A stretch of DNA of 42,397 nucleotides. Origin: Flammeovirgaceae bacterium. GTDB lineage: Bacteria; Bacteroidota; Bacteroidia; Cytophagales; Cyclobacteriaceae. The stretch is taken from assembly GCA_021300095.1 (NCBI GenBank), contig JAJTHV010000189.1, forward strand, positions 1-42,397, given 5' to 3'. Positions 10,764 to 14,922 of this stretch are shown here, in pieces. Positions within the stretch are counted from its first letter, which is position 1. Every line of letters starts with the position of its first letter. The position numbers were made by a program, and so were the translations under genes. The notes under the pieces are model-generated. The model was not told the DNA's origin and searched no databases. It saw only the letters and a program-made list of their open reading frames with translations.

Positions 10764-11990
10764 CTAGGCAATAGCCAGCTCTTTCTTAGACAATTGATTA
10801 ACTGCCTGTAAATTCAATTCCGGCGCCAAAATCACACTCACCTCCTCTTTCTTAGAAAGCTCTTGCAATTTCCTCAGCGAGATAGAGCCTGTCATGTACT
10901 GAAGGCCATTGCCCTGATACCCGCCTTTGAAGATTTCAAAATCTGCGGGTTTTACTACCGCTTTGTCTTGGAAACTTACTACTGCATCCACAACTGCATC
11001 GTTCGAAAATGTAAAATTCTCGCCTTGGGTAAACTTCTTGTATTCGTAGCGATAATCGAACGTTAATGCCGAAATATCTGAAAGAACAGCCGAACCGGTA
11101 GGGTAACTTCCAGCACCCTTACCAATAAACACCTGCTTTTCCGCGAAAGCGCCTTCGACCAACACTGCGTTGTACTCGTTGCGGACATTGGCTAGCATGT
11201 GATCGGCCGGAATAAATTGAGGGGCCACAAAACCAATGATTTTACCAGCTAGTTTGTACGCTCGCGCCACTAGTTTGATGGTCAGATTATTTTCGCGGGC
11301 ATATTTTAAATCAACAGCCGAAATTTTGTGAATACCCACATTGATAATTTCTTCAGGCTTCACAAATACACCAAAGGTATGCGCGATGGCGATGGTTAGC
11401 TTAAACTTCGGATCGAAGCCTTTTACATCCAATGACGGATCGCTTTCGGCAAAACCCAATTCCTGCGCTTGCTTCAACGCTTCGGCATATCCTTTCTTTT
11501 CTTCAAAAACTTTGGTTAGGATGAAATTGGTCGAGCCATTAAAAATACCTTCGATGCTGGTGATCAAATCATTGTCGTAATACTCTTCGAGGTTACGCAA
11601 GATCGGAATACTGCCGCACACCGCACCTTCATACAAAACCGAGCGGTCATACTTTTTCTGGAGTTCAAAAATTTCTTTCAGGTTTTCAGCCAGCATGCGT
11701 TTGTTGGCTGTTACCACGTGTTTGCCATTGCGCAAAGCAGCCTTCACAATTTCATACGCGGCCGGGGCATCGTCAATCAACTCTACGACAATATCGATTT
11801 CTTTGTCGGTGAGAATATCATTTTTGTCAAACGTAAAAATGGCCGAATCTAAAGAGCGTTGTTTCTCCCGATTCTTTACGCAGATTTTTTTTATCTCAGC
11901 CTTTACACCGTGAGTTTCGTTGAGCACGTGATACAAGCCTTGCCCCACTACGCCAAACCCAAACAATCCTATTTTTAACTTCTTCTTCAT
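10764..11990 (-). CDS. hom: Homoserine dehydrogenase
   Basis: The enzyme reduces L-aspartate-4-semialdehyde to L-homoserine, the branch point to methionine and threonine. The Rossmann motif is GLFGFGVVGQG (residues 8-18). VVTANKRML is followed by the homoserine dehydrogenase core GSIPILRNLEEY...GIFNGSTNFILT and the signature ELGFAESDPSLDVKGFD. The 408 residues suggest a monofunctional enzyme with a short C-terminal extension and no aspartokinase domain. There is no clear full ACT domain. It is the third gene of metY-metX-hom, with 7 bp between metX and its start. Its placement in a SAM-riboswitch operon ties homoserine supply to methionine demand. Confidence 0.95.
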   Translation of the reverse strand: MKKKLKIGLFGFGVVGQGLYHVLNETHGVKAEIKKICVKNREKQRSLDSAIFTFDKNDILTDKEIDIVVELIDDAPAAYEIVKAALRNGKHVVTANKRMLAENLKEIFELQKKYDRSVLYEGAVCGSIPILRNLEEYYDNDLITSIEGIFNGSTNFILTKVFEEKKGYAEALKQAQELGFAESDPSLDVKGFDPKFKLTIAIAHTFGVFVKPEEIINVGIHKISAVDLKYARENNLTIKLVARAYKLAGKIIGFVAPQFIPADHMLANVRNEYNAVLVEGAFAEKQVFIGKGAGSYPTGSAVLSDISALTFDYRYEYKKFTQGENFTFSNDAVVDAVVSFQDKAVVKPADFEIFKGGYQGNGLQYMTGSISLRKLQELSKKEEVSVILAPELNLQAVNQLSKKELAIA

Positions 11991-11997
11991 TTCAATT

Positions 11998-13095
11998 TTA
12001 CAAGTTTATGTCTTCCAGCGAATCAAAGTCGGTAGAAGACGCTTCGGTTAATACTACTTCTTGTTCTTTTTTAGGCGAGCGCAAAAACTGGTTCACCAGC
12101 TTTTTGAATTTCCCAAATTCCACTAAAAATCCATCGTGTCCATACAGCGACTCAATTACATTTAGTTGCGCACCCGGAATATGATGAGCCAAATATTTCT
12201 GCTCCCGCAGCGGAAACAATAAATCGCTATCAATGCCAACTACTAATGTACGCGCCTGAATTTGTTTCAACGCCTGCACCACACTGTTTCGATTTCTTCC
12301 TACCTGATGACTGTCCATCATTTTGGTGAGGAGCCAGTAGGAATAGGCATTGAATCGACTCGCTAACTTCTGCCCTTGGTAGCGTTGATACGAGCTGGCT
12401 CTGAAGTCATCTATTTTCTGATTTTCTTTTTCAGATTGTGTTTCTTCAAACGTTTCGTACGTGCGAAAAGAAATCATGCCCATCGCACGCGCTGCTTTCA
12501 TTCCCTCCACGCCTGCTCTCACATCATTTTCCTTCCAAGTGGAATCTGCTGCTATGGCCATGCGCTGCGCTTCATTGAAGGCAATACCCCAGGGTGAATG
12601 AAAAGCATTACAAGCAATGGCGATCAGGTTATGAAAAACAGTTGGCTGTTGAATCGCCCACTCAAGGGCTTGCTGACCGCCCAATGATCCTCCTATCAGC
12701 GTGTGTACTTTGTCAATCCCCAAAGATTCGCGAAGGAGATCGAATGCACGAACCACATCGCGATTGGTGACCAATGGAAAATCATGAAAGAAATTTTTTC
12801 CTGATTTCGGATTGATGGAAAGAGGTCCGGTTGACCCATAGCATCCGCCCAATGTATTGGCACAGATGATAAAATAATCACGTGGATCATACGGGCTTCC
12901 TTCGGTAAAAAAATCCTTCCACCAATCGGTAAAGTCTGAACTCCCCGTAAGGGCATGACAAACCCATACCACATTGGATTTATCTTTATTCAATTGCCCC
13001 AAAGTGGTGTACTTGAGTTGAAAGCCGGGGAGTTTGCTCCCCGACTCTAATTCAAATTCTTCCGAATGATGAAAAATGGATTCTGTTTTTACCAT
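11998..13095 (-). CDS. metX: Homoserine O-acetyltransferase
   Basis: MetX acetylates homoserine with acetyl-CoA, giving O-acetylhomoserine, the substrate of MetY. It is an alpha/beta-hydrolase: oxyanion region CHALTGSSDF, NTLGGCYGSTGP, nucleophile elbow GGSLGGQQ (about residue 140), acid GIDSDLLFP and catalytic His in YGHDGFLVE. These match MetX rather than the unrelated MetA. The length of 365 aa is normal, with a short acidic C-terminal tail. It starts 3 bp after the metY stop, so the two genes are tightly coupled. Confidence 0.95.
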   Translation of the reverse strand: MVKTESIFHHSEEFELESGSKLPGFQLKYTTLGQLNKDKSNVVWVCHALTGSSDFTDWWKDFFTEGSPYDPRDYFIICANTLGGCYGSTGPLSINPKSGKNFFHDFPLVTNRDVVRAFDLLRESLGIDKVHTLIGGSLGGQQALEWAIQQPTVFHNLIAIACNAFHSPWGIAFNEAQRMAIAADSTWKENDVRAGVEGMKAARAMGMISFRTYETFEETQSEKENQKIDDFRASSYQRYQGQKLASRFNAYSYWLLTKMMDSHQVGRNRNSVVQALKQIQARTLVVGIDSDLLFPLREQKYLAHHIPGAQLNVIESLYGHDGFLVEFGKFKKLVNQFLRSPKKEQEVVLTEASSTDFDSLEDINL

Positions 13096-13098
13096 GCT

Positions 13099-14433
<1,335 letters not shown>

Positions 14434-14462
14434 TTAAATTTTTGAATGATTTTATTATGATT

Positions 14463-14495
14463 AAAAAATGTATGTGGACATAATCGTAGCCATAC
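14463..14495 (-). terminator. Terminator-like hairpin before metY (possible attenuator)
   Basis: On the minus strand GTATGG (14490-14495) can pair with CCACATAC (14470-14477), with one bulged A. TTTTTT follows at once (14463-14468). It lies between the leader ORF and metY, so it could be the regulated terminator of the leader. GCCA upstream can instead pair with the TGGC overlapping the 5' arm. The stem is short and AT-rich, so this is tentative. Confidence 0.4.
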
Positions 14496-14523
14496 CTGTC
14501 ACCTGGCAGACCTTAGATTAGTT

Positions 14524-14588
14524 TGTTGCTGGAAGCGGTTCGCTATCGGTTAGCAGCAACAGCCACAACAACACATGTTGCAGCAACA
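14524..14588 (-). promoter_or_regulatory. Complementary segments around the Cys codons of the leader ORF
   Basis: On the minus strand the last Cys codons contain TGTTGCTG (14554-14561). This is exactly complementary to CAGCAACA (14524-14531) just past the stop codon. The intervening 22 bases hold a small AGCG/CGCT hairpin (14534-14544). The first Cys codons can form a TGTTG/CAACA hairpin (14576-14588). A ribosome paused in the Cys run would block these pairings, the layout expected for attenuation. The pairing is seen; the regulatory role is inferred. Confidence 0.45.
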
Positions 14589-14669
14589 ACAATTAAAAAT
14601 AAATTCGAATCTGGATTTGAGAATCTGCAATCGGAACGATTGCTCAATGGGACGGATGAATGTTTTCAT
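14550..14669 (-). CDS. Polycysteine leader peptide, 39 aa
   Basis: A 39-codon ORF starts at the ATG at 14669, 7 bases after the 3' end of the SAM riboswitch P1 helix. It begins MKTFIRPIEQSFRLQIL, has no signal peptide or membrane segment, and ends CCCCNMCCCGCCC before TAA: ten Cys, one Met, one Asn and one Gly in the last thirteen residues. It lies in the 5' leader of metY-metX-hom, whose products make homocysteine from sulfide. Polycysteine leader ORFs are known in mycobacteria as cysteine-responsive attenuators. I infer the same kind of role here. A Cys-rich metal-binding micropeptide, or chance translation of a GCA/ACA-rich stretch, are the alternatives. Confidence 0.65.
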   Translation of the reverse strand: MKTFIRPIEQSFRLQILKSRFEFIFNCCCCNMCCCGCCC

Positions 14670-14676
14670 TTTAACA

Positions 14677-14806
14677 CCGGTTTATAGTTCCCCAAAGACC
14701 TTCTTCGGGGCAGGACTTAGCACCTTTTTTCTTTCCGATTTGATCGGTTGGAAGGGGTTGCTAGCGTTTCATCGAGCCTGTCTCTCCACGCTTCTTTATA
14801 AATCGG
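14677..14806 (-). promoter_or_regulatory. SAM-I (S-box) riboswitch
   Basis: On the minus strand P1 is formed by CCGATTTATA (14797-14806) and TATAAACCGG (14677-14686), nine of ten pairs. Between them are the family landmarks in order: a GTGGAGAGACAGGCTCGATG kink-turn region, GAAAC, GCAAC, a P3 stem CCGAT/ATCGG, the near-invariant GGTGCTAAGTCCTGC, and a 9-bp P4 hairpin CCCCGAAGA/TCTTTGGGG. SAM-I aptamers bind S-adenosylmethionine and switch off methionine genes, and metY-metX-hom is a classical target set. There is no intrinsic terminator right after P1. Instead, the ATG of the polycysteine leader ORF follows at once, so the switch may act on that start or on elongation further on. Confidence 0.93.
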
Positions 14807-14838
14807 CTGGCAAAAAAGCCTTACCGACTATGATGACA

Positions 14839-14870
14839 CAAACGTATACCAACTTAGTAGAGTTTCCAAA
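14839..14870 (-). promoter_or_regulatory. Promoter of the met leader and metY-metX-hom
   Basis: On the minus strand, TTTG (14867-14870), 20 bp and TACGTTTG (14839-14846) match the Bacteroidota consensus. The predicted transcript start near 14832 lies about 25 bases before the riboswitch, so the whole riboswitch and leader ORF are transcribed. Confidence 0.72.
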
Positions 14871-14890
14871 TGCTTCGTAAAAAATTTGTT

Positions 14891-14922
14891 AAAAAAGTTA
14901 ACTCACAACCGTTTGGTTGAGT
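14891..14922 (-). terminator. Terminator after the TPR histidine kinase
   Basis: On the minus strand ACTCAACC (overlapping the kinase stop codon) pairs with GGTTG-TGAGT across an AAAC loop, with a small bulge. A TTAACTTTTTT run follows. It separates the kinase from the met promoter just downstream. Confidence 0.65.

Follow-up and report, generated by a model that had tools for sequence, protein, structure and literature searches.

A SAM-I riboswitch beside a leader ORF ending in cysteine and methionine codons upstream of metY in Bacteroidia: a putative composite attenuator

Upstream of the metY-metX-hom operon, within the 42,397-nucleotide stretch of DNA analyzed here (the window), a SAM-I riboswitch is followed almost at once by a short open reading frame (ORF) that ends in a cluster of cysteine and methionine codons. 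Because the same pairing recurs in many relatives, the Cys codons are probably not there by chance but belong to a device that senses sulfur supply in two steps. We consider it likely that the whole constitutes a composite leader, in which the SAM-I riboswitch gates a ribosome-mediated attenuator responsive to cysteine and methionine. What is observed is the anatomy of the leader, its conservation, and its covariation; that the ORF is translated, that ribosomes stall on it, that SAM gates it, and the direction and output of the response are inferred. The parts of this reading differ in strength. That the leader ORF is a conserved and selected part of the leader is almost certain. It probably senses the supply of cysteine (and probably of methionine) through ribosome stalling. 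As for SAM gating its translation, which the closeness of the ORF's start to the aptamer suggests, we judge the chances to be about even.

The metY leader in the window

All of the features described here lie on the minus strand. The riboswitch (14679-14804) matches the Rfam family RF00162 over its full length (model positions 1-108) and scores 71.9 bits, where the gathering score is 44.4; the 3' end of its P1 helix is of the TATAAACC type. By the Rfam model, P1 ends at 14679, 9 nt before the ATG of the leader ORF, but two further G's (found by eye) can extend it to 14677, 7 nt before the ATG. The leader ORF (14550-14669) has 39 codons and the translation MKTFIRPIEQSFRLQILKSRFEFIFNCCCCNMCCCGCCC (39 amino acids), and its Cys/Met control codons, CCCCNMCCCGCCC, stand immediately 5' of the stop (14553-14591). 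The start of metY (13099-14421), encoding O-acetylhomoserine sulfhydrylase (TIGR01326, 674 bits, cut-off 495), lies 128 nt 3' of the leader ORF. It is followed by metX (11998-13095), encoding homoserine O-acetyltransferase (NF001209, 334 bits, cut-off 331; TIGR01392, 356 bits, below its cut-off of 500), and hom (10764-11990), encoding homoserine dehydrogenase (NF004976, 336 bits, cut-off 205). The riboswitch thus precedes, on one strand, genes of the Met/SAM pathway, and the control codons precede genes of the same amino-acid metabolism, as MetY makes homocysteine. The initial annotation, made from the sequence alone, had drawn the same picture: a complete SAM-I aptamer with P1 ending 7 bases from the ATG, a 39-codon ORF with a Cys tail, metY-metX-hom downstream, and promoter, riboswitch, ORF, and operon on one strand. 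All of this is borne out.

Promoters of the Bacteroidota type have a TTTG at -33, and a candidate for this box is found at 14867-14870. It forms one end of the layout TTTG-N20-TACGTTTG (14839-14870) 5' of the aptamer, the other end of which, TACGTTTG (14839-14846, 35-42 nt 5' of the aptamer), fits TAnnTTTG. This sequence is given as the consensus of the Bacteroidota -7 box in passages of PMC9723704. Among the 51 Cys-leader riboswitches with enough upstream sequence, 37 have TAnnTTTG no more than 110 nt upstream, compared to 3.25 in shuffled sequences, and 31 of 38 such sites begin 38-44 nt upstream of the riboswitch. The pattern TTG-N18-23-TAnnTT is found in 44 of the 51, compared to 4.8 in shuffles. 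Since the box is enriched at a set distance upstream, the aptamer, leader ORF, and operon probably share a single transcript.

The ending of P1 goes along with the leader ORF. Over all 180 SAM-I riboswitches that were classified, a Cys ORF accompanies 49 of 64 with the ending TATAA, 4 of 67 with GATAA, and 0 of 33 with GATGA, so that TATAA, rather than GATAA or GATGA, is the ending of most Cys-leader riboswitches. A point against the proposed mechanism is that P1 is missing when the aptamer region is folded with neither constraints nor ligand. This fold pairs the aptamer with early codons of the ORF, which, judging by the peptides of relatives, are not kept. The window's genome has a second SAM-I riboswitch with the same P1 type (L001, G000:C279:3686-3797, minus strand), before a gene we take to be YceI-like, and its short ORF ends SCKGC. 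The short ORF of L032 ends LCCKG. In both loci the end of the ORF can form a hairpin before a run of T's, with the Cys codons of L032 in the loop.

Conservation of the arrangement

A single rule was applied to all loci: an ATG no more than 16 nt from P1, a short ORF, and clustered Cys codons within its last 16 codons. The 180 SAM-I loci classified consist of 111 listed from 58 genomes (the window's own included) and 69 from a search of the phylum. The 69 are made up of 60 listed places, mostly of the window's class, plus 9 of 30 automatic loci, the remaining 21 and some further matches of that search being left out. The window's class appears from named relatives to be Bacteroidia. A metY was called close if its product is at least 55% identical to the window's MetY.

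By this rule, a Cys-tailed ORF lies behind 43 of the 49 same-class SAM-I riboswitches that precede a close metY, or 44 of 49 if one counts L096, where the ORF is present and the rule chose the wrong ATG. Before other genes, it lies behind 13 of 110 (one of them, L248, probably false), and before metY outside the window's class, behind 0 of 13. The comparison of metY with other genes gives a Fisher p of 9e-21 for the uncorrected counts (43/49 vs 13/110), with loci treated as unrelated. The lack of a conserved polycysteine ORF behind the riboswitch in relatives was one of the findings that, according to the initial annotation, would refute its proposal, and in 44 of the 49 same-class metY leaders the ORF is there. 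The five exceptions are varied. L062, of the window's genus, has a 9-codon ORF without Cys; L111 has a CCCC run in a frame that starts elsewhere; L236 has a tail rich in Met and Cys that falls outside the rule; and L241 and L255 have a short ORF without Cys, its ATG 9 nt after P1.

A second set, of 80 named metY loci, overlaps the 58-genome set and includes in part the same genomes. An automatic filter found the ORF in 64 of these, and the addition by eye of L126, L135, L159, and L174 brings the count to 68. Hosts include Chryseolinea, Chryseosolibacter, Cesiribacter, Marivirga, Hymenobacter, Solitalea, and many Mucilaginibacter. Nine of the 12 loci without the ORF are of the Algoriphagus/Aquiflexum type. 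All nine have SAM-I, and the four that were read have a short ORF without a Cys run. The other three are L157, with only a weak Cys run; L190, with SAM-I and then what by eye appears to be an ordinary terminator; and L171. A search with the Rfam model found no SAM-I beside the Cys ORF in L151, L159, L174, and L189, and in L186 SAM-I lies far upstream of the Cys ORF. The failure to find SAM-I carries less weight in L171 (a short contig) and L174, because only 397 and 357 nt, respectively, are available upstream. In leaders of the Algoriphagus type the Cys run is absent although SAM-I and a short ORF remain, so control by cysteine is dispensable. SAM-I with a short ORF beside P1 and no Cys run was seen in L149, L152, L154, L178, L241, and L255.

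Several groups of the class have the arrangement, and in a few cases the gene behind it is not metY. In L047, SAM-I and the Cys ORF stand before genes that we take to be cysH- and cysD-like. They were also seen before genes that are presumably SusC/TonB-type receptors (L053, L072, L078), ATP-grasp proteins (L034, L066, L080), and YceI-like proteins (L040, L045). In seven genomes of the window's genus (L021, L050, L064, L083, L088, L092, L102), the leader is separated from metY by an extra ORF, presumably OsmC-like, whose frame is interrupted at some points.

The distance from P1 to metY ranges widely (202-898 nt in 42 loci), but the ATG of the leader ORF follows P1 by a median of 9 nt and in 52 of the 56 rule hits by 7-14 nt. 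This spacing bears on how the two elements are related. Both sensors might be real yet independent, SAM-I having an output of its own and the Cys/Met leader another, with no gating. In keeping with this, the Cys leaders of L151, L159, and L174, in which no riboswitch was detected, look complete, and there are SAM-I riboswitches with no leader ORF, several of which have their own intrinsic terminators. However, an ATG 7-14 nt after P1 leaves little room for a separate expression platform in between, and the position of the ATG is kept even where the Cys run is lost (at 9 nt in L241 and L255, and by eye in those of the Algoriphagus type). We regard independence as unlikely, although it is the most credible of the rivals considered here. 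In the window, no terminator was found that might serve as the platform of the riboswitch, P1 ending 9 nt before the leader ATG, and we infer that the riboswitch probably acts on the start of the leader ORF and not through its own terminator. A SAM-I riboswitch with the ribosome site inside P1 is a mechanism described in passages of PMC2258182.

The leader ORF as coding sequence

Cysteine accounts for 39.6% of the last 15 codons but only 1.4% of the body in 89 distinct leaders, a few of which have mis-called starts. The last 16 codons of 86 distinct leaders contain 520 Cys and 125 Met codons out of 1376, compared to 28 Cys and 17 Met out of 2154 in the bodies. Met is present in 78 of the 86 tails and in 61 of 69 diverged representatives (less than 40% end-anchored identity). 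The enrichment belongs to the frame of the ORF: the other two frames of the same tail DNA have 7 and 15 Met codons out of 1290, 120 and 32 Cys codons, and 19 and 38 stops. Within hand-picked groups of leaders, close pairs keep Cys in 124 of 139 Cys columns, in 14 cases by way of a synonymous change, whereas 461 of the 692 other columns are identical. Because Cys is kept through synonymous changes, and beyond what is seen in other columns, selection probably acts on the Cys codons as codons, and by their frequency and frame the Met codons seem to belong to the signal. The leader ORF shares with known attenuators the conserved clustering of control codons near the end of a short ORF, and with the polycysteine ORFs of mycobacteria a run of Cys near the stop.

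The pattern of three Cys codons followed by a stop has 36 matches in the window's genome, compared to 9 for a reversed control pattern. Twenty of the 36 were read. Besides the window's, three have frames with an ATG (13, 14, and 4 residues), and none of the 19 others read stands before a sulfur gene, as judged by eye and with no family search. No convincing second Cys leader came to light among these 20 matches.

A chance origin of the Cys string, which the initial annotation had thought hard to credit, is ruled out by the enrichment in the tail relative to the body, the behavior of close pairs, the association with metY (44/49 vs 13/110), the enrichment of Met in the frame of the ORF, and the matches of the pattern that were read in the genome. 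The two-input reading offered there, SAM first and then cysteine, remains the best explanation of the comparative evidence, with some amendments: the tail appears to carry methionine as a signal as well, the riboswitch probably acts on the start of the leader ORF, the arrangement reaches beyond one group and one gene, and the window yielded no intrinsic terminator.

Other uses of a Cys-rich tail can be imagined. Perhaps the nascent peptide senses metals (copper, zinc) or redox state and stalls or releases the ribosome itself, with no part played by charged tRNA. A copper-responsive upstream ORF is described in PMC9426467. This seems quite improbable, however, for the number and order of Cys residues vary with no fixed spacing (by eye), Met codons are enriched along with them, and the gene downstream is in most cases (43 of 56 rule hits) the homocysteine-forming metY. 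More improbable still is that the ORF produces a functional small Cys-rich protein whose position in the leader is incidental. The conserved ATG, frame, and stop make translation plausible, but by eye the body differs freely between groups while the Cys/Met tail is kept, a search of NCBIfam with the leader ORF gave no match, and in the window the tail overlaps one strand of an RNA helix, taken up next.

RNA structure following the ORF

What is called here stem A is a pairing possible throughout the window's genus, in which a conserved GCAACA-like strand downstream is joined to the last Cys codons or, for part of the genus, to bases just past the stop. In the window, the 5' strand is UGUUGCUG (14554-14561), the last Cys codons, and the 3' strand is CAGCAACA (14524-14531). 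Over 29 relatives, strands from the same leader score a mean of 18.3, compared to 15.8 for swapped strands, a value reached in 0 of 5000 permutations. Shuffle tests on single sequences are weak, with p≤0.05 in 12 of 89 and a p of 0.21 for the window. By the permutation, then, a helix overlaps or adjoins the control codons, as in an attenuator.

It might be supposed from this that the TGY repeat is kept as an RNA element rather than as codons, since TGY repeats can pair with the downstream GCAACA strand. Against this, ATG, frame, and stop are conserved, Cys is maintained through changes in the third base, the enrichment of Met is confined to the frame of the ORF, and the 5' strand of stem A may fall after the stop, as in L064 and L088 among others, while the Cys run remains. 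We give this possibility very little credence and return to the view of the tail as a set of codons.

Stem B, UAAUC...UGCC-AGGUGACA-GGUA...GAUUA (14481-14520), consists of three helices with 13 pairs in all. In the alignment, 93.6% of cells are paired, and 35 cells show a double change. The covariation score is reached in 0 of 500 shuffles, nor is it reached with slid partners. Two of five measures are weaker: the number of pairs with a double change is reached in 10 of 500 shuffles and the number of further pair types in 52 of 500. Alignment A1 omits two of 31 sequences (L059 and L060) as divergent. RNAalifold, run on 31 relatives, gave only part of stem B. A free fold of the region after the Cys codons of the window draws both stem A and stem B, with a stability no better than that of shuffles (z -0.59).

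In 24 of 36 genomes of the same genus, the covariance model (R1), which matches the window at 14473-14565, has a single match, located at the metY leader. Of the 24, 21 (the window's included) are in the model's own alignment, and G007, G032, and G034 are outside it. The model matched none of 22 genomes from other genera and found no credible match in 29 other chosen loci (best E 0.81). Stem B is confined to one genus. The core of its loop, GUGAC, is invariant, and the element contains AGGUGA, which to our eye resembles a Shine-Dalgarno sequence; no start codon was seen by eye at a constant distance from it. No credible known Rfam RNA turned up in the region after the ORF, the next best candidate being RT-9 (16.7 bits, where the gathering score is 46.1).

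Terminators and the output step

A scan for intrinsic terminators gave no match in the leader of the window, so the leader has not been filed as a classical attenuator of the terminator type, and Rho or another route is the likely output. Terminators are not absent from such leaders as a class, an idea that failed when scanner matches were counted: 12 of 60 leader-type SAM-I loci (chosen by hand, five of them added) have one, compared to 10 of 300 shuffles, and 17 of 99 other SAM-I loci, compared to 5 of 495 shuffles. Both classes thus exceed their shuffles, and with a p of 0.68 terminators do not separate the one from the other. Of the strongest matches (≤-13 kcal/mol), 15 of 17 are in SAM-I loci without the leader. 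Strong intrinsic terminators were seen in L005-L009, L016, L082, L224, L231, L234, L261, and L267, where SAM-I precedes genes for distant MetB/MetY-like proteins (28-37% identity to the window's MetY).

Three of the leaders in which Rfam found no SAM-I are informative with respect to output. In L151, L159, and L174, the Cys/Met ORF is followed by a strong terminator (-19 to -31 kcal/mol), which supports the idea that such ORFs serve to attenuate transcription, and by eye the control codons can pair with a strand 5' of the terminator. The scanner found no terminator in L189, another locus with a Cys ORF and no SAM-I detected. In the 330 nt upstream of metY in L151, two modules of Cys/Met ORF and terminator can be made out by eye in tandem, with no riboswitch detected.

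The first 120 nt after the ORF contain 23.5% C and 15.3% G, and C exceeds G in 83 of 89 leaders; where SAM-I has no such leader, it does so in 64 of the 124 stretches that follow. This rut-like composition is suggestive only, because the complements of TGY codons are themselves CA-rich. The window's genome encodes Rho, and with a C-rich, G-poor stretch at hand, Rho-dependent output is possible.

A proposed mechanism

Taken together, these features suggest a composite leader on the mRNA, in which two sensors act one after the other, SAM-I first and the Cys/Met leader ORF second. The binding of SAM would close P1, which lies 7-9 nt before the AUG, and keep ribosomes from starting on the leader ORF. 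At low SAM they would enter it, and if charged Cys-tRNA (and probably Met-tRNA) were in short supply, they would stall in the Cys/Met tail. A stalled ribosome would cover the 5' strand of stem A, and the transcript would continue into metY-metX-hom. If the leader were untranslated (high SAM) or fully translated (ample cysteine), stems A and B would fold and the operon would be down-regulated, most likely by Rho-dependent termination or through loss of translation or of mRNA. Expression would thus require both low SAM and low Cys/Met. The most detailed version of the proposal is more tentative, its chances falling somewhat short of even: an AND gate with three signals, namely low SAM, low Cys, and low Met, in several groups of Bacteroidia, where the output of the riboswitch is translation of the attenuator peptide and that of the whole is of the Rho type, with the 40-nt stem B added in one genus.

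Such logic would suit the position of the enzyme. The cystathionine beta-synthase route leads from homocysteine towards cysteine, and the window's genome has a cystathionine beta-synthase, with a score just above the cut-off (513.5 bits vs 510.25), so homocysteine can be a source of cysteine in addition to methionine. MetY therefore sits where the demands for SAM, Met, and Cys come together.

Comparison with known systems

The arrangement works like two known devices joined. Classical attenuators (trp, his, ilv) have control codons in a leader ORF beside an RNA hairpin, as found here, and L151, L159, and L174 have the intrinsic terminator as well. The window's leader differs from them in having a riboswitch in front and in that no intrinsic terminator was found in it. 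The mgtCBR and mgtA leaders of Salmonella are also structured, nutrient-sensing leaders with codon-sensing short ORFs, and the present leader would similarly combine structure and codon sensing in one transcript, although the signals, the genes, the phylum, and the RNA are all different in what is described of them. Short ORFs in such a leader are described in PMC3641672. For the Bacteroidota, attenuation by leader peptides is mentioned for amino-acid operons of Flavobacterium in passages of PMC9723704.

A closer parallel is the tandem of SAM-I and Met T-box before metX/metY, described as a logic gate in passages of PMC9481103. As outlined there, that tandem too places a sensor of tRNA charging behind SAM-I, serves genes of homocysteine synthesis, and obeys the logic of NOT-SAM AND starvation. 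The second sensor here, however, would be a Cys/Met ORF, its start adjoins P1, and the host is one of the Bacteroidota. No T-box lies 3' of SAM-I as far as can be detected: the window has no match at the gathering score, and 14400-14900 has none with E values of up to 10.

The polycysteine ORFs of mycobacteria are said, in work by Canestrari et al. from 2020, to be leaderless. Unlike an ORF of that description, the present one starts about 160 nt after the predicted start of the transcript, with the aptamer between the predicted promoter box (14839-14846) and the ATG (14669). Leader ORFs with Cys runs are described for cys operons of mycobacteria and other actinobacteria in passages of PMC1262725, where Rho is proposed with caution. 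Those ORFs resemble this one in being short, with a Cys run near the stop, a sulfur gene downstream, and no conserved terminator, and differ in that, in those passages, no riboswitch is mentioned in front of them; the present ORF has Met codons mixed in, and the gene is another. Searches of open-licence PMC papers (bioRxiv not included) brought up none recognized as describing a SAM riboswitch joined to a Cys leader ORF.

Gene finders easily miss short leader ORFs of this kind. The relatives offer natural comparisons: SAM together with Cys/Met (Chryseolinea, Mucilaginibacter), SAM without the Cys run (Algoriphagus), and Cys/Met plus a terminator with no detected riboswitch (L151, L159, L174). 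If the proposal is true, it would show a riboswitch controlling entry into an attenuator, and the Bacteroidota would have a ribosome-based counterpart of the tandem of SAM-I and T-box. A common class of bacteria would then be running homocysteine synthesis by way of a composite RNA leader, in which a riboswitch is coupled to a leader peptide.
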